A stretch of 36,923 nt of DNA, taken from positions 1 to 36,923 of IMG/VR virus record IMGVR_UViG_3300012936_000058; one strand, written 5' to 3'. This stretch comes from a virus. The translations under genes were made by a program, and so were the position numbers. Of this stretch, positions 3,260 to 32,241 are shown piece after piece. The notes beneath the pieces are model-generated. The model did no database searches, was not told where the DNA came from, and saw only the letters and a program-made list of their open reading frames with translations. Positions within the stretch are counted from its first letter, which is position 1, and each line of letters begins with the position of its first letter.

Positions 3260-3266
3260 CTAAATA
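3260..3266 (+). promoter_or_regulatory. Late-type promoter (CTAAATA) driving the riboswitch
   Basis: CTAAATA followed by CTTATA lies six bases before the first stem of the riboswitch at 3273. If transcription begins about that distance downstream, as for T4-type late promoters, the RNA would start almost exactly at the aptamer. Same motif as at 1810 and 5983. Confidence 0.55.
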
Positions 3267-3272
3267 CTTATA

Positions 3273-3317
3273 CGTTCATCCCTGTTCGGGACGGAAGTAG
3301 CATTATGCGAAGGAACG
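3273..3317 (+). ncRNA. Glutamine riboswitch (glnA / Downstream-peptide type)
   Basis: The segment has the architecture and conserved bases of the glnA/Downstream-peptide RNA class, which binds L-glutamine. P1 is CGTTC (3273-3277) with GAACG (3313-3317). A hairpin TCCC (3279-3282) with GGGA (3288-3291) is followed by the conserved CGGAAGTAG (3292-3300). A second hairpin GCA-TTA-TGC (3300-3308) is followed by the conserved GAAGGAACGC. It lies between a late-type promoter and a small peptide gene with an AAGGAGAG Shine-Dalgarno (3332-3339), the standard context of the Downstream-peptide class. Recognition is from memory of the consensus, not a covariance search. Confidence 0.88.
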
Positions 3318-3343
3318 CACTCAACTTTAAAAAGGAGAGTGTT

Positions 3344-3541
3344 ATGAACAGATTCGATCACTTACACAAAACATACCGTGAGCAACGTGTGAAAGCACGT
3401 AAGGAGCGTATCCTACAGAGTACAAGACCTGTGGTAGACGCTAATGCAAATGGTACGAGTGGATACGTAATCAAGCATGGCGAGAATGCTGGTTCTATTG
3501 CTGGACATCAATCAGTAGAACATCCAAACAAAACCTTTTAG
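3344..3541 (+). CDS. Riboswitch-controlled 'downstream peptide', 65 aa
   Basis: The small basic protein under the glutamine-type riboswitch. The open frame extends upstream to 3257, through the aptamer, but the ATG at 3344 follows a strong AAGGAGAG and is the true start. The first half is a highly charged helix (HKTYREQRVKARKERI), the second half glycine-, asparagine- and histidine-rich and probably disordered. Known relatives of this arrangement in cyanobacteria include the glutamine synthetase inactivating factor IF17, also a small basic helical protein under this riboswitch. I cannot show homology here, only analogy of size, charge and control. A regulator of host glutamine synthetase is therefore a hypothesis. 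Confidence 0.75.
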   Translation: MNRFDHLHKTYREQRVKARKERILQSTRPVVDANANGTSGYVIKHGENAGSIAGHQSVEHPNKTF

Positions 3542-4140
3542 TGGGTAAATTCTAACCAAGTGGTGATGCAGTATTTGTCACCACTTAAAGGTGGATTGCC
3601 TCTATGGGTATGCGTGTAGCCTGCGGGACAGAACATTATAGTTCCTTGTCTTGCAGGTATGCGTAGGCTTTGATATAGAAATTCTGTTTCCCCACCCTCT
3701 TCAACTGTGTTCAAATATGCCATAGCAAGTATAGCACGTTGTCCTGTGTCTCTGCTGGCGTGTTCACAGTGCCATATATGATAACCTTCTGATGGTTTGG
3801 TGTGTTGTATTTTGATTGAGTGTGATATCTGTATTGGGTTTACATTTTCAAATATACCAAATTCTGATATGTAATCATTTACACAGTTCTGCATTGCATT
3901 GTAGTATGGTTGCAGTAGTTTGTTCATGCTCAGTGCAAACGTACCCGATTCTCCTTCGTCATACAGCATAGCACCGTCCTTGTTCATTTTTGGTGCAGAC
4001 TCTGATGCTGTTTGTCTTGTGAGTATACGTGTGCCTTCTTGCTGATGATAGTAATCAATTACTTCTTGGCAGTATTCTGGTGATAGTGCGTTGTCCCATG
4101 TTCTTATAAAGTTCTGCATATTGTTATTTAAACTACGCAT
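3538..4140 (-). CDS. 2OG-Fe(II) oxygenase (prolyl-hydroxylase-like)
   Basis: Member of the 2-oxoglutarate- and Fe(II)-dependent dioxygenase fold. Visible landmarks are the iron-binding first His in YHIWHCEHASR, the strand LAMAYLNTVEEGGETEF typical of prolyl 4-hydroxylase-like proteins, and the distal His in GYTHTHRGNPP, followed by KYCITTWLEF. The acidic ligand appears to be Glu (HCE) rather than the usual Asp, and the 2OG-binding Arg is not obvious. Length (200 aa) is normal. An alternative start is Met8. It has its own sigma70-like promoter at 4204-4232, and its stop overlaps that of the riboswitch peptide on the other strand. Substrate unknown. Confidence 0.8.
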   Translation of the reverse strand: MRSLNNNMQNFIRTWDNALSPEYCQEVIDYYHQQEGTRILTRQTASESAPKMNKDGAMLYDEGESGTFALSMNKLLQPYYNAMQNCVNDYISEFGIFENVNPIQISHSIKIQHTKPSEGYHIWHCEHASRDTGQRAILAMAYLNTVEEGGETEFLYQSLRIPARQGTIMFCPAGYTHTHRGNPPLSGDKYCITTWLEFTH

Positions 4141-4327: not shown

Positions 4328-5956
4328 TTATCGCCACTGTGACATAGTATAGAGTTTGGCATCGTTGCAATCAATATAATCTGAATTATTTGAGTGTCTT
4401 ACTCTACCAGTTCCGTGAATAACATCACCATCTCTGTATGCAAATGGTTTGTGTATAACAACGTCAATGTATTCTCCATAGTCAGTGCCAAGTGTTACAA
4501 ATGTAACGTATCTTCCTTTGTTACCTTTGTATACTCTACCATTGGCAACAAGTCCACTGAACTCTACCCTATCCAACCATTGGCTTCTTACACCAAGTGC
4601 AGGAATGAATCCATTCTTCCACCAACCGTTCTGTGTTGGTATGCCATGTCTATGTGCTTCACTTTGATATACCCAACGTCTATATGAACCTTCGCAGTGC
4701 TTGATACAGGCCGCCCAAAACTCTTTGGGGTTATGTGCTTTTTGATATGCCAATGCCCATATAAGCCTACCAAGGTTTACTGCATGGGCTCTGCATAATC
4801 CAAAGCCACCAAGTTGTTGCAGTGCCGCCATTGCTTCTTTCTTCTTGGGGTGGTTACCAAGACGTTCCATAAACTCCATTATCTTTTCATCATTCTTTTT
4901 TGCAAATGCTCTGCGATACATATCTGCTTCGTACATATCAATATCAATTAGACTTGCAATTATTTCAATAGCATCATCTTCAAACACCACACTATCCTGT
5001 ACTGCTTCTTTTGACCAGTCATGAAACATTGCGGCCTTTTGTCTTCCACTCAATGCTACCGGACGTATCAGTGCAGTTGCAAAAACACAGTCGTGAACAC
5101 TCTTAGGTTGTATAGCCCTAAACAGTCTACGCATCGCAGGTGACTCGCCCTGTGTTACTCCAAGCACATCACCACGTGATAACAATGCACTTGTCTTTTC
5201 ATCTTCTTGTGGATAGTATTCTAATTTGGTTACACCATCTATTTCCAACAGTTGTGATAAACCTCTGTTGGCAAGTATATCAACTTTCAAATGTTCAAGG
5301 TCTTCAATTTCATACTTGTCCAAAAGTATTTGGTTGTCTTGTGATATTAGACTTTTTGGTAACTGTCTATCAAACATAATAATACCACCACAGTGTTTTG
5401 ATATTGCACGTTTCTTTCCGAGCAGTTTCTTTTCAATTCTTTTCGCCTCTTGTACATCTATATCATAATCTTCATACTTGAAGTTTCGTGGCAAGTTACC
5501 TGTTGCACCCAAACGTTTGGCCGCTTCTTTCTTTGCACTCTTTTCTCTATACATTACATAGTTTGATAGACGTGCAGTCTTACCTGGCCACTTCTTGAAT
5601 ATACGTTGCATTACTTCGCCCTGTTGATGATGTTCAAAGTCAATGTCTACATCAGGTAAGTCGTCACGTAATGGATTCATAAAACGTGCCACTGGTATAT
5701 TCCATTTGATTGGATCTACATCTGTGATACCTAACAGATAACAAATTAAACTGCTACCCGCAGAACCTCTTGTCATGTGTTGTAGATCTTGTGTTATATC
5801 GATGATGTCACAGATTTTGTGAAAGTATTGTGTGAACCTTTGATTAAGGATAAGTTCAAATTCCTCTACAAGCCTGTCTTTATATTCTTCGCCTTGTGGT
5901 ACTGTTCTTTTAAATCGAGATATCAGACTCTGTATGTTTTCTAAATCGTTAGCCAT
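4328..5956 (-). CDS. C-family DNA polymerase (PolIII alpha-like), PHP-less, 542 aa
   Basis: Homologous to the catalytic core of bacterial DNA polymerase III alpha (DnaE). Landmarks in order: TRGSAGSSLICYLLGITDVDP (62-82, cf. GRGSAAGSL), palm motif PDVDIDF (101-107) with catalytic Asp104 and Asp106, SKHCGGIIM (186-194), LKVDILANRGL (223-233) with the third catalytic Asp226, GVTQGESPAMRRLFR (266-280, cf. GVFQLES), ATALIRPVALSG (293-304), and FGLCRAHAVNLGRLIWALAYQKAHNP (fingers, 385-410). An OB-like C-terminus follows. It lacks the N-terminal PHP domain and the tau-binding tail, about half the usual DnaE length. Start fixed by an AGGAGG Shine-Dalgarno and a CTAAATA motif. T4 itself uses a B-family polymerase, so this is unusual. 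Confidence 0.9.
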   Translation of the reverse strand: MANDLENIQSLISRFKRTVPQGEEYKDRLVEEFELILNQRFTQYFHKICDIIDITQDLQHMTRGSAGSSLICYLLGITDVDPIKWNIPVARFMNPLRDDLPDVDIDFEHHQQGEVMQRIFKKWPGKTARLSNYVMYREKSAKKEAAKRLGATGNLPRNFKYEDYDIDVQEAKRIEKKLLGKKRAISKHCGGIIMFDRQLPKSLISQDNQILLDKYEIEDLEHLKVDILANRGLSQLLEIDGVTKLEYYPQEDEKTSALLSRGDVLGVTQGESPAMRRLFRAIQPKSVHDCVFATALIRPVALSGRQKAAMFHDWSKEAVQDSVVFEDDAIEIIASLIDIDMYEADMYRRAFAKKNDEKIMEFMERLGNHPKKKEAMAALQQLGGFGLCRAHAVNLGRLIWALAYQKAHNPKEFWAACIKHCEGSYRRWVYQSEAHRHGIPTQNGWWKNGFIPALGVRSQWLDRVEFSGLVANGRVYKGNKGRYVTFVTLGTDYGEYIDVVIHKPFAYRDGDVIHGTGRVRHSNNSDYIDCNDAKLYTMSQWR

Positions 5957-11295: not shown

Positions 11296-11661
11296 ATGTT
11301 AAGAAAAGATATCGAAGAAAAATTCCCGTTTTTAAGTGTGGTAACTTATGGTGGGCAAGAATATGTAGGAATTGTCAATAACCAGGACAATTTCATTACA
11401 TCTATGTACGTACTCAGCGACTTACAAGATGGGCATAGAGATAAGTTTTTAGAGATGGGCGATGTATGGTGGTGGGAGTCAAATCGAATGATTCCGATCA
11501 ATATCTTCCTACGTCATGAAATGGATCACTTCAAATACTGTATGGTGAACATGAATAGTAAAGATGTAAAGATAATACACGGTCCAACAGTAAACTTAAA
11601 GAACTTAACAGTCAAGCGTGTTAAAAGACGCTCAGTACAATTAATCAAAAAGCCTAAGTAA
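11296..11661 (+). CDS. Conserved T4-like phage hypothetical protein, 121 aa
   Basis: Begins MLRKDIEEKFPFLSVVTYGG, includes a characteristic GDVWWWESNRMIPINIFLR and ends in a basic strand (VKRVKRRSVQLIKKPK). I recall similar uncharacterised proteins in T4-like marine cyanophages, so it is probably a conserved lineage gene. The frame extends upstream to 11125, but that part is antisense to the virion-type gene; the ATG at 11296 follows AAAGAG and is preferred. It is an isolated plus-strand gene inside a minus-strand region and its end overlaps the mini-polymerase stop by eight bases. Function unknown. Confidence 0.78.
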   Translation: MLRKDIEEKFPFLSVVTYGGQEYVGIVNNQDNFITSMYVLSDLQDGHRDKFLEMGDVWWWESNRMIPINIFLRHEMDHFKYCMVNMNSKDVKIIHGPTVNLKNLTVKRVKRRSVQLIKKPK

Positions 11662-12211
11662 CTTGTTCGCAGATTAAGTTCATCTGCACAACTATAGCAT
11701 GAGCATATGCTACTGCATGAGCCTTCTTGAAAAAGTATCCACCATCACTTGGCTTTTGCCAAACTTCCTTGTGTATCTCTTCCCAACTCTTGTTTGCCAG
11801 ATGTCTCTTTGCTGGTCTGATTATCGCTAACACTGCCGCTAACTGTTCTATTGATTTGGGTTGGAGTGTCTTTAGTAGACCACTGTGTTCTCCTACGTGA
11901 AATAATTTGGTTACGAATTCTTGATGCGTGAGTAAATCCCATAATGGCTCCTTCTTCATGAGTGACAAAAGATGCTGTTCATCTTTTATATCTTTATATA
12001 GCGAAACATTTAAAAAGTCAAGTTTAAAGTAACCTCTATCTTCTGCTTCTTCATATTCTATTGTGGATAAATTGTCTACAGGATTATGTGGACACTCTGT
12101 GACGTAAACACCAGTGTTGTGTTTCTTACCTGTACCAAGTTTTGCAACTCTGTGTTTTACTTTGTCAAGTACAACTTCTCTATCTGCAAAATCAATATCT
12201 ATATCAGGCAT
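11654..12211 (-). CDS. Miniature C-family polymerase relative, 185 aa
   Basis: A drastically reduced relative of DNA polymerase III alpha. It starts directly at the palm motif MPDIDIDFADR (catalytic Asp5 and Asp7), keeps the third acidic position in YFKLDFLNVS (Asp65), a GEHSGLLKTLQPKS segment corresponding to the GVFQLES region, AVLAIIRPAKRH (cf. ALYRPGPM), and FKKAHAVAYAHAIVVQMN (cf. FNKSHAAAYALVSYQTAYLK). The nucleotide-binding middle and all N-terminal domains are missing. Both this and the 542-residue protein have their own PDxDIDF motif, so they are paralogues and not halves. It is coupled to the 53-residue ORF upstream by an eight-base overlap. Activity is uncertain; a regulatory or accessory replisome role is possible. 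Confidence 0.8.
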   Translation of the reverse strand: MPDIDIDFADREVVLDKVKHRVAKLGTGKKHNTGVYVTECPHNPVDNLSTIEYEEAEDRGYFKLDFLNVSLYKDIKDEQHLLSLMKKEPLWDLLTHQEFVTKLFHVGEHSGLLKTLQPKSIEQLAAVLAIIRPAKRHLANKSWEEIHKEVWQKPSDGGYFFKKAHAVAYAHAIVVQMNLICEQVT

Positions 12212-27257: not shown

Positions 27258-27851
27258 ATGGATACATTAAATTTATTTGTTCAAACCATTACTCGTGTCA
27301 AGTTTTCCAAGCATGATGAAATGAAAAAACTGTTTGGTAGAGTAGTTGAAGATTACAAAAAGCAGTCCAACAACACAAACATACAGCACATTAATACTTG
27401 GCAAAGCAAAGACAATTTTCAAACTAATAATGCATTTAAGCATATTAGTGAAAGCGAAGATGTTAAGAATTTTTGTAAAGAAATTAATGAAAAGTTAGAC
27501 ATTAAACAAGGACAACACCTTGCAATTACAAGAGCAAAAATACAATGTATACACCCAGGAGGTTGCTTAACTAAATCAAAGAACACTGGTAGTTTTTATA
27601 CTGGTATGTATTTTGTTACAAGTGATCCAAAAAGCGGAGGACTTGTAGTAGACAATCCCGTATCTCAATATTATTTTGATAATATCCCTGTAGAGAACAA
27701 AAATCCATTTAATAGTTGGCAAACATATCTGCCTATGCCTGAAGGCGAACTATACTTTGTTCCTGGGTACTTTGATATTAGTACAACACCAAATTTAAGC
27801 GAATCAGTGTTAGATATAATTACATTTGATATTGAGATAATTAAAAAGTGA
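27258..27851 (+). CDS. Degenerate 2OG-oxygenase-like protein, 197 aa
   Basis: First gene of a three-gene plus-strand block. The second half follows the PF13759 pattern (IHPGGCLTKSKNTGSFYTGMYFVTSDPKSGGLVVDNP; MPEGELYFVPGYFDISTTPN), but the expected metal histidines are missing: the HxD position holds Lys/Asn and the distal His of the usual 'FPSWLxHxxxPN' is replaced (GYFDISTTPN). It therefore looks like a non-catalytic descendant, perhaps sugar- or partner-binding. ATG is preceded by a short AT-rich leader without a clear Shine-Dalgarno. Overlaps the next gene by four bases. Confidence 0.7.
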   Translation: MDTLNLFVQTITRVKFSKHDEMKKLFGRVVEDYKKQSNNTNIQHINTWQSKDNFQTNNAFKHISESEDVKNFCKEINEKLDIKQGQHLAITRAKIQCIHPGGCLTKSKNTGSFYTGMYFVTSDPKSGGLVVDNPVSQYYFDNIPVENKNPFNSWQTYLPMPEGELYFVPGYFDISTTPNLSESVLDIITFDIEIIKK

Positions 27852-28267
27852 AACACATAGATAAACTGTTTGCGGACAGTAACCAAAATAAATTTAGTTA
27901 CGTTCTTATGTTACCTTTAGGAGATAATGTGCTTGAAGCACATCTAACAAATTGGTTAAAGGAACGTGTAAACCTGGTTAAAACGTCTTTTAACAGCGAT
28001 GAAGAACTAATGTATATGTTTGACAGTGCAGACTATGTCTTGTGCAGTGTAGGTGCTTTAAAATGCGTTTTAGACACCACTAAACCGGTGTTTGTAAACA
28101 TACATACTGATAATTTAAAAATTACTAACAAAGAAAATATTTTTGTTTTTGATCCTTATAGAAATGAAGACAAAACCAAAATTGATTACAAACCATTTCT
28201 TAATTTAGCAACCAAATGTTTAAAAGCAGACTTAGATAACCATTGGATACCTTATCATGAAGTGTAG
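27848..28267 (+). CDS. Hypothetical protein, 139 aa (GTG start)
   Basis: Small Rossmann-like protein: FSYVLMLPLGDNVLEAHL, LMYMFDSADYVLCSVGALKCVLD, KPVFVNIHTDN and NIFVFDPYRNED, a beta-alpha pattern close to the nucleotide-binding half of GT-B or methyltransferase folds but without motifs I can name. It starts at GTG inside the previous gene's last codons and overlaps the radical SAM gene by 11 bases. Probably a partner of the radical SAM enzyme that follows, by position. Confidence 0.65.
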   Translation: MKHIDKLFADSNQNKFSYVLMLPLGDNVLEAHLTNWLKERVNLVKTSFNSDEELMYMFDSADYVLCSVGALKCVLDTTKPVFVNIHTDNLKITNKENIFVFDPYRNEDKTKIDYKPFLNLATKCLKADLDNHWIPYHEV

Positions 28268-29192
28268 TGCATTTTGGAATCATACTAATATACGCAGTGG
28301 CAACAGAGTGTATCCTTGTTGTAGATTCAAATATTCTGTAGCAGAATTTGATGGCGATGTTGGTAATGTATTACACAGTGATGCATATAAAAAATTAAGA
28401 GAACAAGCATCACAAAACAAATTTATAAAAGGTTGTGAAAAGTGTTTGTATGAAGAAAAAATTGGACACAAAAGTTTAAGACAAGAGTTTAATGAGAAAT
28501 ATTCTATGGATAAAGTAGAATTAAAGTTTCTTGAAATTGGATTCGATAACTTATGTAATCTTACGTGTGATGGGTGTAACTCAGAGTTCAGTACAAGTTG
28601 GATCGTAAAAGAGAAAGAAATTTACGGTGCACCAAAACATAAGTTAATGGAGATTGATGCAGTAACTAATGTACCAGATACAATCGAGAAAATTTTATTT
28701 TTAGGAGGTGAGCCTTTAATTACCGAACGTCATCTGAAGTTACTGCATCAAGTCTCTCACAAACAAAAGGTAGAAGTCATATACAATACAAACGGCACAT
28801 TTATTCCTACAGCACAAGTTGTAGAAGAACTTAAACACTACAAGCACGTTACATTTATATTAAGCATAGATGGTATAGGTGCTCTTGGAGAGAAGGTACG
28901 TGGCGGTACAAAATGGTCAAATGTTGTTAAGTTTATTGATTGGGTATACGATAATAATTTTAATTTAGAATTTAACAGTGTGTTACATAAAAACAATTAC
29001 ACTGGCTTAAAAGAACTAAATGATTTTTGTAGACGATTTCCTGCACGTTGGTATATTAATGTTTTAACTTATCCTTTTGATTTAGATATTAGGTTGCTTG
29101 ATAAACAAGCACAACATAAAATAATAAATGATGCAAAAGAATATAACTTACCCAACAAAGACTTTATTATAAATCATTTACAAACTGTTTAA
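28257..29192 (+). CDS. Radical SAM protein with N-terminal SPASM/Twitch region
   Basis: The [4Fe-4S]/SAM motif CNLTCDGC (CxxxCxxC) lies about 100 residues in, followed by LFLGGEPL (the GGEP motif), VIYNTNGT and FILSIDGIG, typical of the partial TIM barrel. Ahead of it, at 1-65, is a SPASM/Twitch-like cysteine set: KCSAFW, VYPCCRF, DVGNVLHSDAYKKL and GCEKCLYEE, which would hold an auxiliary Fe-S cluster. It is 311 residues and ends convergently, overlapping the exostosin-like gene by 26 bases. Members modify peptides, sugars or nucleosides; the target here is unknown. Confidence 0.92.
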   Translation: MKCSAFWNHTNIRSGNRVYPCCRFKYSVAEFDGDVGNVLHSDAYKKLREQASQNKFIKGCEKCLYEEKIGHKSLRQEFNEKYSMDKVELKFLEIGFDNLCNLTCDGCNSEFSTSWIVKEKEIYGAPKHKLMEIDAVTNVPDTIEKILFLGGEPLITERHLKLLHQVSHKQKVEVIYNTNGTFIPTAQVVEELKHYKHVTFILSIDGIGALGEKVRGGTKWSNVVKFIDWVYDNNFNLEFNSVLHKNNYTGLKELNDFCRRFPARWYINVLTYPFDLDIRLLDKQAQHKIINDAKEYNLPNKDFIINHLQTV

Positions 29193-30324
29193 TCTTGTGT
29201 AGTAATTCTACAGGTTGCTTGTGTTCAAATAGTTGCAAGTAATGTTTCCGATTATATTCTAATATAGGTTGAATACTGTTATACATATCACGTAATTCAT
29301 GTATGTTTTTTTCATTTAATATTTTGACTTGTTCCATTGCACTATCTAATCTTAAACTTGCATCTTTGATAGTATCATAACGTTCGTCTATAATATCATT
29401 AAATGTTATGAAGCCTAACTCACGTAAAAGTTTAAGTGTATTTTGTAATCCTACAATTACAAACGGATGTTTATACAAGAAACATTTTAAAACTTTTTCT
29501 GTAAACGCTTGCCTATCTTGATCATAAAAGTCGCCTTCTGTAATAATACTAAAGTAACTTTCAGAATAAAAATACTCGCCAGTAGGTAAGTTTCTCGCCA
29601 TAGAAGTGTAAGTGTTTTCATTTAAATCTAATTCAATAGGTAAATTTTGTTTGAGTCTTTCAACAACTGTGTCTTGTAATTTTACATTATGTAAACTAAC
29701 ATCAAGATATTTTCTATGCTCTTGTTGTTCTAAGTTGCCTTCAAGAACATACTTGTACTTACCAAGTGGGCAACTTAAAAATGTATGTTTTGCAATATCG
29801 TGTTGTAGCAAATAGTTCGTTACTAAAAGTCTATGCAAACGTTCTTGCCTGTTTAAACACAAAAACTTTTTTGCACGTAAATTACTATTGCCATTCCAAT
29901 CATTTATTAAATGATTACGTACATCTATACCATCATATCTATCAAGATGTAATTGTACATTAAAGTATATCTTGTTAGGTGTGTTTAATAATTTGTTGTT
30001 TGTTAATATTACCCAATCTACAATGTAAGGATTGTCTAATACAGTTTGCTCTACCAACGTAAGAAATGCATCGTCTGTAAGCCCCTCGTATGAGTCATCG
30101 ATAACAAGATAGGTCGGAACTTTATAAGTTTTAAAAAAGTTAGTAAACGTTTCGAAAGTAAAATCATTGTCTCCTACATATTCAAAAAATACAACAAGTT
30201 TCTCACTGTTATCGAGTATCTTGTCGTTATGTCCTTCAAATTCAATAATGTCTTTGAAGTTCTCAATAAAAGTACCAAGACTTCTTGAGTTGTTATCCAT
30301 AGTTATCAAAGGTACTTTTTTCAT
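29167..30324 (-). CDS. Exostosin-like protein, 385 aa
   Basis: Glycosyltransferase-like protein. The C-terminal half matches the GT47/exostosin-like pattern seen in marine phages: SYFSIITEGDFYDQDRQAFTEKVLKCFLYKHPFVIVGLQNTLKLLRELGF, then FNDIIDERYD. The N-terminal half has an alpha/beta Rossmann layout (KVPTYLVIDDSYEGL). No DxD metal motif is needed in this fold. It starts with an ATGA overlap from the radical SAM gene and ends overlapping the opposite-strand radical SAM gene. Likely adds a sugar to a glycan. Confidence 0.72.
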   Translation of the reverse strand: MKKVPLITMDNNSRSLGTFIENFKDIIEFEGHNDKILDNSEKLVVFFEYVGDNDFTFETFTNFFKTYKVPTYLVIDDSYEGLTDDAFLTLVEQTVLDNPYIVDWVILTNNKLLNTPNKIYFNVQLHLDRYDGIDVRNHLINDWNGNSNLRAKKFLCLNRQERLHRLLVTNYLLQHDIAKHTFLSCPLGKYKYVLEGNLEQQEHRKYLDVSLHNVKLQDTVVERLKQNLPIELDLNENTYTSMARNLPTGEYFYSESYFSIITEGDFYDQDRQAFTEKVLKCFLYKHPFVIVGLQNTLKLLRELGFITFNDIIDERYDTIKDASLRLDSAMEQVKILNEKNIHELRDMYNSIQPILEYNRKHYLQLFEHKQPVELLHKIKQFVNDL

Positions 30325-31187
30325 AATAAGTGTTTCACATTTTTAACCACTGCTTCTTCTTGTGGTTTAAGTTCTGGATTAGCAGGACACATAGCACAAA
30401 TGGTATGTGGCTCAAATATATTTTTTACAAACTTTTCCATTTCGTCTGCACTACAGTTTGCTTCTAATCCTTCATATTCTAAGTATGGCGACCAGTCGGC
30501 ATCATCAAGCATATTAAATTTTGTTGCATGAGTTCGCAACATACTAATAGGTGGACATTTATATAACTTTCCTTTGTATATAATAGGATAAATGTTTACT
30601 CCACACTTTTTATAACTTTGTGTAGGATTGCGATCATCCCATGGCTTCATTTGTCCGTCTACTATACGTCTATAATCATACCAACCCCCTTGCGTAGGAT
30701 CTGTTACTTCAATAGTTACTCCGTCTTGTTCATGTGCAATATCATTTACTATACGCCAATCACCTTGTCCGTAAAATGCATTCCATAAATTATTTTCAAT
30801 TAACGATCTTACTTTAGGATCTTTATTATGCAAACTGCAACTTACTTTTGCATTTCCTATTTTACGCAATACAGATAATAGTTCTGGACGTTTAGGCAAT
30901 AAAAAACCATTTGTGTAAACTTCGATGGTTGCATGATCAAATACACGTCTTGCTTCTTTTAGTATATCATAAATGCGAGGGTGTAGTAAAGGTTCTCCTC
31001 CTATAATAGTAAAGTGATCTGGATCAAGTCTACGAAACCATTTTTCCATATTCTCAACTATGTCATCAAACTTATCTACATAAGCATGACCATAGTCAAT
31101 AAATCGATCACACCCTGGACAAGCCAAGTCACAACTCGTTGTGATCATATATTCAAGATTGGGTATATGATGTCCGCGGTTAGTCAA
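30321..31187 (-). CDS. Radical SAM protein, 288 aa
   Basis: Cluster motif CDLACPGC near residue 18 (CxxxCxxC), then FTIIGGEPLLHP and EVYTNGF, so it is a radical SAM enzyme. C-terminal cysteines (KKCGVN, KLYKCPP, ANCSADE, TICAMCPAN) fit an auxiliary SPASM-type cluster. Its start overlaps the amidinotransferase end by eight bases and its stop overlaps the exostosin-like gene, so these three form a chain. It is the second radical SAM enzyme in three kilobases. Chemistry unknown; Fe-S loading may be aided by the SufE-like neighbour. Confidence 0.92.
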   Translation of the reverse strand: MTNRGHHIPNLEYMITTSCDLACPGCDRFIDYGHAYVDKFDDIVENMEKWFRRLDPDHFTIIGGEPLLHPRIYDILKEARRVFDHATIEVYTNGFLLPKRPELLSVLRKIGNAKVSCSLHNKDPKVRSLIENNLWNAFYGQGDWRIVNDIAHEQDGVTIEVTDPTQGGWYDYRRIVDGQMKPWDDRNPTQSYKKCGVNIYPIIYKGKLYKCPPISMLRTHATKFNMLDDADWSPYLEYEGLEANCSADEMEKFVKNIFEPHTICAMCPANPELKPQEEAVVKNVKHLL

Positions 31188-32241
31188 AGTAACTTTCCAA
31201 AGTGCCTTTACGTTTAGTATCTAACGTAACACAATGGAAGCCACCGCTTAATGTACGTGCTTGACGCATAGGTAAACCAATAGACTCAATGCCGTACTTG
31301 TCTAATACCTTACGCAGTTCATGTTGATTTTCATCGCAAATGACAAGTTTCTCATTTACACTCATAAAGTTTAGACCGATGTACTTACTACATGGTGAAA
31401 CGTTGTTAGGCAAGTTTGTTCCAATGTCATGCACCTGATCACCTGGGAAGAATATTTTATCCCATGATTTAAATATAGGTGGATACCAGTCTGGATTAAT
31501 TCTATCGCCGTTAAATAAAACTAAACCAGGACGTAAAGGAATTACTGTACTGTCAAAGTGTGAATAACTATAAAACTTTTCAGCAAGATGAATTTTATAT
31601 CCTAATGGTTCAAGGATAGTTTTTAACCACTGTCCTCCTAATAGTGTGCCACTGTTGCTTACTTGATAAATTAGATCTTTACCAAGTCTTACTACATTAG
31701 GCGCATCAAATACAATTTCTTTGTTTACAAGTGTAGGAATACTAAGGTCCTCAAGTTGATAACTTTCGTCAAGTAGTCTTGGGCGAGGTGCACTTATCCA
31801 TTGTGTTCCACCTTCCATTGCTTCATATAAAAAATCTCTGTATGCAGTAGTTTCATATTGTCTTGCTCTCATTGCTCCTGGACAATCAATAATTAGGTTA
31901 TTCAATGGTAGTAATAAATCTCTTGGACAATATGTATACCAACCAGTAGTTTTCCAATCTGGTGATCCAAATTCAACACTATGATCAATTGATGCAGGAC
32001 GTCTTACTTTAACACCTAAGTTAGTTAATACTTTTGCAAAGCCATCAAGGTCTTCGTTTGCTTCATCAATTACCCATTGTGGACTTGGCCCTTCTAAGTC
32101 TTTGATGTGTTCATAACTGCAATCAGCAAAGCCAAACGAGTGTGTTGATTTATCTACTGTTGGAATACGTGCATGATCTGCAATACCAACAAATACTTCT
32201 TCTAATGGATCCCAGTCATTGTGACTACTTACTATTGTCAT
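31180..32241 (-). CDS. Glycine/inosamine-type amidinotransferase
   Basis: Full-length member (353 aa) of the Arg:glycine/inosamine-phosphate amidinotransferase family, which moves an amidino group from arginine to an amine, making a guanidino product. Landmarks: DWDPLEEVFVGIADHARIP at the start, PAPRPRLLDESY-like ISAPRPRLLDESY, VFDAPNVVRLGKD, the catalytic His in YSHFDSTVIPLRPGLVLFNG and the catalytic Cys in SGGFHCVTLDTKRKG near the end. Sits beside an aminotransferase-like gene (17-base overlap), the arrangement of amination followed by amidination. Substrate not identifiable. Confidence 0.93.
   Translation of the reverse strand: MTIVSSHNDWDPLEEVFVGIADHARIPTVDKSTHSFGFADCSYEHIKDLEGPSPQWVIDEANEDLDGFAKVLTNLGVKVRRPASIDHSVEFGSPDWKTTGWYTYCPRDLLLPLNNLIIDCPGAMRARQYETTAYRDFLYEAMEGGTQWISAPRPRLLDESYQLEDLSIPTLVNKEIVFDAPNVVRLGKDLIYQVSNSGTLLGGQWLKTILEPLGYKIHLAEKFYSYSHFDSTVIPLRPGLVLFNGDRINPDWYPPIFKSWDKIFFPGDQVHDIGTNLPNNVSPCSKYIGLNFMSVNEKLVICDENQHELRKVLDKYGIESIGLPMRQARTLSGGFHCVTLDTKRKGTLESYFD

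Follow-up and report, generated by a model that had tools for sequence, protein, structure and literature searches.

The RNA in front of a 65-residue basic peptide in the window (the whole 36.9-kb virus fragment analysed here, which lacks tRNA and tmRNA genes) is, judged from its sequence, a glutamine-I riboswitch whose predicted ligand is L-glutamine. Our best reading, which draws partly on modelling, is that the peptide would be the phage's version of a SAR11 nitrogen-status protein, which high glutamine turns on at a late stage. The explanation as a whole, a late-transcribed translational glutamine-I switch in a SAR11-type phage with a host-type peptide that tunes host nitrogen assimilation, is one we regard as somewhat probable.

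The aptamer and its late promoter

The aptamer lies on the plus strand at positions 3271 to 3321 and matches the Rfam glutamine-I (glnA) model, RF01739, with 53.2 bits (gathering score 35; E = 4.3e-9 over the window). The alignment is full length with all pairs intact: P1 joins CGTTC (3273-3277) to GAACG (3313-3317), P2 joins 3279-3282 to 3288-3291, and P3 joins 3300-3302 to 3306-3308. The conserved CGGAAGTAG and GAAGGAACGC are present, and the P1-P2-P3 junction carries the conserved CGGAAGUAG / GAAGGAACG by which members of RF01739 are recognized. These are the paired strands, two hairpins and conserved segments that the original prediction had pointed out. Its joint assignment to the glnA and Downstream-peptide RNAs holds for the former, on the high covariance score just given, and fails for the latter. 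Although Downstream-peptide (glutamine-II) RNAs share the ligand class and short downstream ORFs, their model, RF01704, gives the window RNA 16.6 bits against a cut-off of 33, and membership in that class was rejected. That the element is a decayed or chance aptamer-like sequence without function is very improbable, as this is contradicted by the score, the conserved order of elements, the tandem duplications seen in other phages and the coupled expression platform.

The aptamer occupies a 5' leader position with an expression platform, and 22 nucleotides separate its end from the start codon. The Shine-Dalgarno sequence AAGGAG (plus strand, 3332-3337) is placed 6 nucleotides before the ATG at 3344, and the ORF (plus strand, 3344-3541) encodes the 65-residue basic peptide MNRFDHLHKTYREQRVKARKERILQSTRPVVDANANGTSGYVIKHGENAGSIAGHQSVEHPNKTF and ends with TAG at 3539-3541, in keeping with the strong Shine-Dalgarno sequence and basic peptide originally described. 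With its stop codon the ORF reaches into the end of a convergent 2OG-Fe(II) oxygenase gene (3538-4140), so late transcripts would run antisense into that gene.

A late promoter proposed at 3260 is borne out by the core CTAAATA at 3260-3266 on the plus strand; with a TAAATA-type -10 element at the probable transcript start, it has the form of a T4-type late promoter. Of 65 distinct phage loci, 47 have TAAATA within 30 nucleotides of the first aptamer, compared with 0.8 expected from control windows, and 12 have tandem aptamers. Within the window's own peptide family, 26 of the 27 distinct phage loci have TAAATA at this distance and so keep promoter, aptamer and peptide together. The cassette is found in contigs with B-type polymerases as well as in contigs with PolIII-alpha polymerases, which represent different phage lineages.

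The phage origin of the window, assumed from the outset, is supported. Its DnaB-type helicase is 53% identical to that of jumbo phage PA5oct, and its PolIII-alpha-like polymerase has its nearest relative in a 484-kb uncultured phage, which suggests that the window is part of a jumbo T4-like phage. The source is probably a marine phage of this kind with SAR11 as host; on sequence grounds, the SAR11 members of the peptide family described below point to SAR11, rather than cyanobacteria, as the host. The polymerase appears to be split, with NTPase and finger domains at 4328-5956 and another polymerase-family ORF at 11654-12211. Elsewhere, radical-SAM, 2OG-Fe(II) oxygenase and unknown genes cluster beside a nucleotidyltransferase-like gene (27258-32241), possibly as a sugar or surface-modification island.

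Expression platform and direction of switching

An anti-Shine-Dalgarno hairpin (plus strand, 3317-3342) was identified as the expression platform from arm/tail complementarity, an ensemble calculation and an arm-shuffle control. Its outer stem pairs GCACTC (3317-3322) with GAGTGT (3337-3342), and its inner stem pairs CTT (3325-3327) with AAG (3332-3334). The hairpin and P1 have G3317 in common, and the hairpin also uses C3318, the first base after P1, which we take to pair within the aptamer in the published glutamine-bound crystal structure. Across families, the CAYYY that follows P1 finds its partner in RRRTG, which overlaps the last nucleotides of the Shine-Dalgarno sequence. Arm/tail complementarity across families is 9.90, versus 8.49 for permuted sequences, and none of 20000 permutations was as high.

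Secondary-structure energies agree in direction. The calculated cost of opening the Shine-Dalgarno zone is 6.9 kcal/mol for free RNA versus 4.2 kcal/mol with P1 formed, and P1 formation eases opening in 46 of 48 sequences and hinders it in none. When the 5' arm and loop are shuffled, the opening gain is 0.55, compared with 2.68 for the real sequences. Accessibility is calculated here as an 8-nucleotide opening energy with the arm-shuffle control, which does tell the states apart; an average over 4 nucleotides gave no separation of the P1-formed and free states. Taken together, the complementarity, the opening energies and the shuffle control predict that glutamine switches translation of the peptide on, and by the same modelling an ON-type platform would be common to several phage peptide families. 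We also considered competition between the 5' strand of P1 (GTTCAT) and the start-codon region (ATGAAC), which are perfectly complementary in the window. Only 18 of 24 family members have AAC as the second codon, and the complementarity is absent in other families, so this competition is auxiliary at most and was rejected as the main switch.

In the proposed mechanism, transcription would begin at the late promoter just upstream, as its sequence and conservation indicate, so that the aptamer forms the 5' end of the mRNA. Without glutamine, the nucleotides 3' of P1 would keep the Shine-Dalgarno region closed by pairing with its 3' end, whereas bound glutamine would stabilize P1, withdraw these nucleotides and turn translation on.

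The opposite arrangement, in which glutamine shuts the peptide down and the peptide is made under nitrogen shortage, is improbable. The same aptamer does occur in SAR11 amt and glnA leaders, where shut-off by glutamine would make physiological sense, but those leaders have a different platform of ~90 nucleotides, and the phage platform frees the Shine-Dalgarno sequence on P1 formation in the 46 cases noted above. Moreover, activation by glutamine is the known behaviour of glutamine-I and -II switches, as reported for both type 1 and type 2 in cyanobacteria (PMC6316151). An ON switch, which we prefer, resembles the Synechocystis gifB glutamine-I system (PMC6316151) in its aptamer, its small basic downstream protein and its predicted direction. 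Unlike gifB, the window switch belongs to a phage and follows a T4-type late promoter, its peptide is unrelated to IF17, and its host group is SAR11.

The peptide family in phages and SAR11

A peptide search detected 46 relatives of the window peptide in IMG/VR. A single or double aptamer stands directly upstream in 43 of these, among them all 42 closest, and CTAAATA precedes it in nearly every case, so the predicted pairing of riboswitch and peptide exceeds chance. A separate DNA-pattern search for the aptamer returned 58 phage contigs, in which every marine phage aptamer with a readable downstream ORF precedes a basic peptide of 19 to 65 amino acids. The peptide families following the aptamer comprise MNRFDHLHK (the window's, with divergent RFxH variants), YRG repeats, MNTIIxQL, MTKYxxxRFxRAVK...NPWY, MxLWSxYCR, MDSFTLYQFK and MNYRDF.

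The window peptide matches the PHROGs profile phrog_32989 over residues 17-53 (E = 7.5e-7; down to 1.4e-11 for close relatives), and a profile comparison of the two families with hhalign gives 96.6% probability and 5.5e-10. This family has no assigned function, and its core members are SAR11-phage proteins of 53 to 54 amino acids (MRDTKKLEEF...NGTQKYVIKKGINKGKVI). The core type is present at at least 566 IMG/VR loci and differs from the window in its control: the aptamer is missing from all 80 closest relatives of the riboswitch-free type that were examined. Peptides of the phrog_32989 type are located among the late genes of SAR11 phages HTVC019P, HTVC011P, HTVC027P, Eistla, Kolga and HTVC008M, and riboswitch-free phage copies in general are found among late, packaging and tail genes, including near DNA maturase. 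A tblastn search of named phages with the window peptide gave no match, whereas distant family members did match. In HTVC008M, an unannotated copy at ~1915-2087, flanked by the DNA end protector gene and baseplate genes, has a frame apparently broken by a shift. AlphaFold2 predicts a helix at residues 5-27 of the window peptide, with low confidence for the remainder; the mean pLDDT is 67, and the model was therefore judged too weak for a fold search. The predicted helix is strongly basic.

The original prediction had invoked the cyanobacterial glutamine synthetase inhibitor IF17, and a link by descent does not hold up. A true cyanophage inactivating factor of the IF7/IF17 family, acquired from a cyanobacterium, would account for a size, charge and riboswitch that are the same as in gifB/IF17, and the layout of a small, basic, glutamine-switched protein is indeed alike. 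Homology is not detectable, however: the hhalign probability against cyanobacterial IF7-like proteins is 0.1, and the window peptide has no Pfam match, DUF4278 included, although one tested member of the YRG-repeat family matches that domain. The relatives are instead SAR11 and SAR11-phage proteins. Since the homology evidence already contradicts it, we give this origin almost no credence.

Homologs are found by profile search in 293 of 397 SAR11 genomes, almost always as a single copy. Among 385 genomes drawn from the Alphaproteobacteria, three have a homolog, all three belonging to the SAR11 set, and no homolog was found in the sampled genomes outside SAR11. The window peptide clusters with the SAR11 host proteins, with which it shares the core NGxGTxGYxxKxGxNxGK. 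In a tree, the host copies split into two clades. Clade A groups with riboswitch-free phage copies (support 98/100), and clade B, whose members bear a structured leader, groups with riboswitch-controlled phage copies (88/88). All 27 clade A copies examined lie tail-to-tail with glnA. The spacing to this glutamine synthetase gene is mostly no more than tens of bases but reaches 0.5-0.8 kb in two cases; suf-type genes also precede the clade A copy in one contig (L337). The remaining host copies outside the glnA neighbourhood have unrelated gene contexts. In two SAR11 genomes, one of them a single 1.28-Mb contig, the leader of the peptide gene is itself a glutamine riboswitch (60.2 bits); these two peptides are roughly intermediate and have no resolved place in the tree. 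A Pelagibacteraceae contig (L157) carries the aptamer and a homologous peptide on a piece of chromosome with mnmA-, recX- and helicase-like neighbours. One SAR11 genome (G264; L330 and a second match) contains a host copy plus a phage-like copy beside phage genes, and possibly derives from an infected cell. In another contig (L328), a sub-threshold alpha_tmRNA match (29.4 bits, cut-off 50) overlaps the 3' end of the peptide gene at 1455-1547.

The 5' leader of clade B consists of two consecutive compact pseudoknots whose loop/tail pairs covary, as CAC/GTG, CTC/GAG and GTC/GAC in a first set and as CTAC/GTAG, TCGC/GCGA, CGAC/GTCG and GCC/GGC in a second. Pairing of the second hairpin was checked by script, since MAFFT misaligned it, and in leaders with an inserted hairpin the second tail, which the script missed, was read by eye. 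Of 397 SAR11 genomes, 78 have the pattern, each of them once, with no matches in a reversed control, and no Rfam family matches the leader. Leaders were located upstream of the peptide ATG in contigs L318-L329, L331-L336, L339-L345, L366-L373, L376-L379, L383-L385 and L393-L395. Three genomes have the leader before a second, unrelated small basic protein (MFYKDF...), which is homologous to the phage MNYRDF peptide, whose gene has tandem glutamine aptamers. The host leader and the glutamine aptamer therefore front the same two protein families. MFYKDF... proteins occur in four genomes, all of which lack the window-family host protein, and the two may substitute for each other. Judged by its sequence pattern, the double-pseudoknot leader is apparently undescribed and a candidate new class of regulatory RNA.

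The glutamine aptamer class and its occurrence in phages were already known (PMC2864571, PMC9004378, PMC9964418). Glutamine riboswitches have been described as restricted to cyanobacteria (PMC6316151), a statement that fails in current genomes, as the aptamer is present on SAR11, SAR86 and betaproteobacterial chromosomes. It precedes amt and glnA in SAR11 and glnA in SAR86, often in tandem, and small basic proteins resembling other phage peptides lie under tandem aptamers in SAR86 and a betaproteobacterium. For at least four of the phage peptide families, relatives are encoded on bacterial chromosomes. Glutamine-I aptamers, again often tandem, were also noted in genome contigs L115-L234 from SAR11, SAR86, SAR116 and other marine bacteria. 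The phage-borne RF01739 aptamer of OM43 phage Melnitz (MZ577097, 2503-2672) is 88.6% identical to the window stretch and has been read as controlling ssrA/tmRNA (PMC9004378). It lies 3' of the permuted tmRNA, not upstream, and precedes an unannotated 32-residue basic ORF (MTLYQQWCYLKAQKEYRRRQKILMYFRIRLKG), so the published reading is doubtful; a tiny basic ORF follows the aptamer in both phages.

Proposed role of the peptide

The family to which the product belongs spans most SAR11 genomes and hundreds of contigs of SAR11 phages. Phages are thus equipped with copies of the host type, partly under a glutamine switch and partly without a detectable one. By analogy with cyanobacterial inactivating factors, the protein may adjust host nitrogen assimilation, most likely through glutamine synthetase, so that the phage would engage it once the late-infection glutamine pool suffices. 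Glutamine synthetase is a plausible, if somewhat doubtful, target. It is suggested by the glutamine switches of phage copies and of some host copies, by the glnA adjacency of host copies, by the small size and strong positive charge that recall the inactivating factors, and by a SAR11 response to nitrogen limitation without PII, as announced in the title of Smith et al. 2013 (cited in PMC5069961). Action on glutamine synthetase or nitrogen control, as first proposed, accordingly gains from the clade that is tail-to-tail with glnA and from the riboswitch in two host genomes, and stays conjectural. The adjacency may count for less than it seems: SAR11 synteny is conserved, so the 27 cases may be one ancestral event, and suf-type genes also precede the peptide there.

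Alternatively, the peptide might be a late virion, packaging or nucleic-acid-binding accessory that does not target nitrogen enzymes; glutamine would then only signal translational capacity and thereby time production of the peptide. The late promoter and the strongly basic helix would suit such a function, and the riboswitch-free copies near DNA maturase and tail genes fit a virion role too. However, a single copy in most SAR11 chromosomes, the glnA neighbourhood, and the riboswitch or structured leader that host copies bear argue for a cellular role, and we hold this alternative to be rather unlikely, both for the function and for the timing cue.

The host-derived nitrogen reading, which we prefer, can be extended. 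SAR11 nitrogen assimilation might be run by unnamed small basic proteins akin to glutamine synthetase inactivating factors, with a new double-pseudoknot sensor, and phages might take over this control; the leader of one clade would read glutamine or another nitrogen signal and be interchangeable with the glutamine riboswitch, and phages would carry such proteins with a glutamine switch or without a detectable one. As a joint proposition this is speculative, and we would not expect all of it to hold.

Phage glutamine riboswitches were previously listed without a convincing target, and now appear consistently before tiny basic peptides. Relative to the literature we found, the new elements are this consistent phage pattern of a late promoter or tandem aptamer with a tiny basic peptide, the ON-type platform predicted across peptide families, the SAR11 host homologs in the glnA neighbourhood, and the candidate double-pseudoknot leader. 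The host protein is encoded once per genome in most SAR11, which are among the ocean's most abundant bacteria, and in one clade it lies beside the glutamine synthetase gene. A vague idea of nitrogen-sensing phages thereby becomes testable, and SAR11 gains a candidate for its missing nitrogen regulator.
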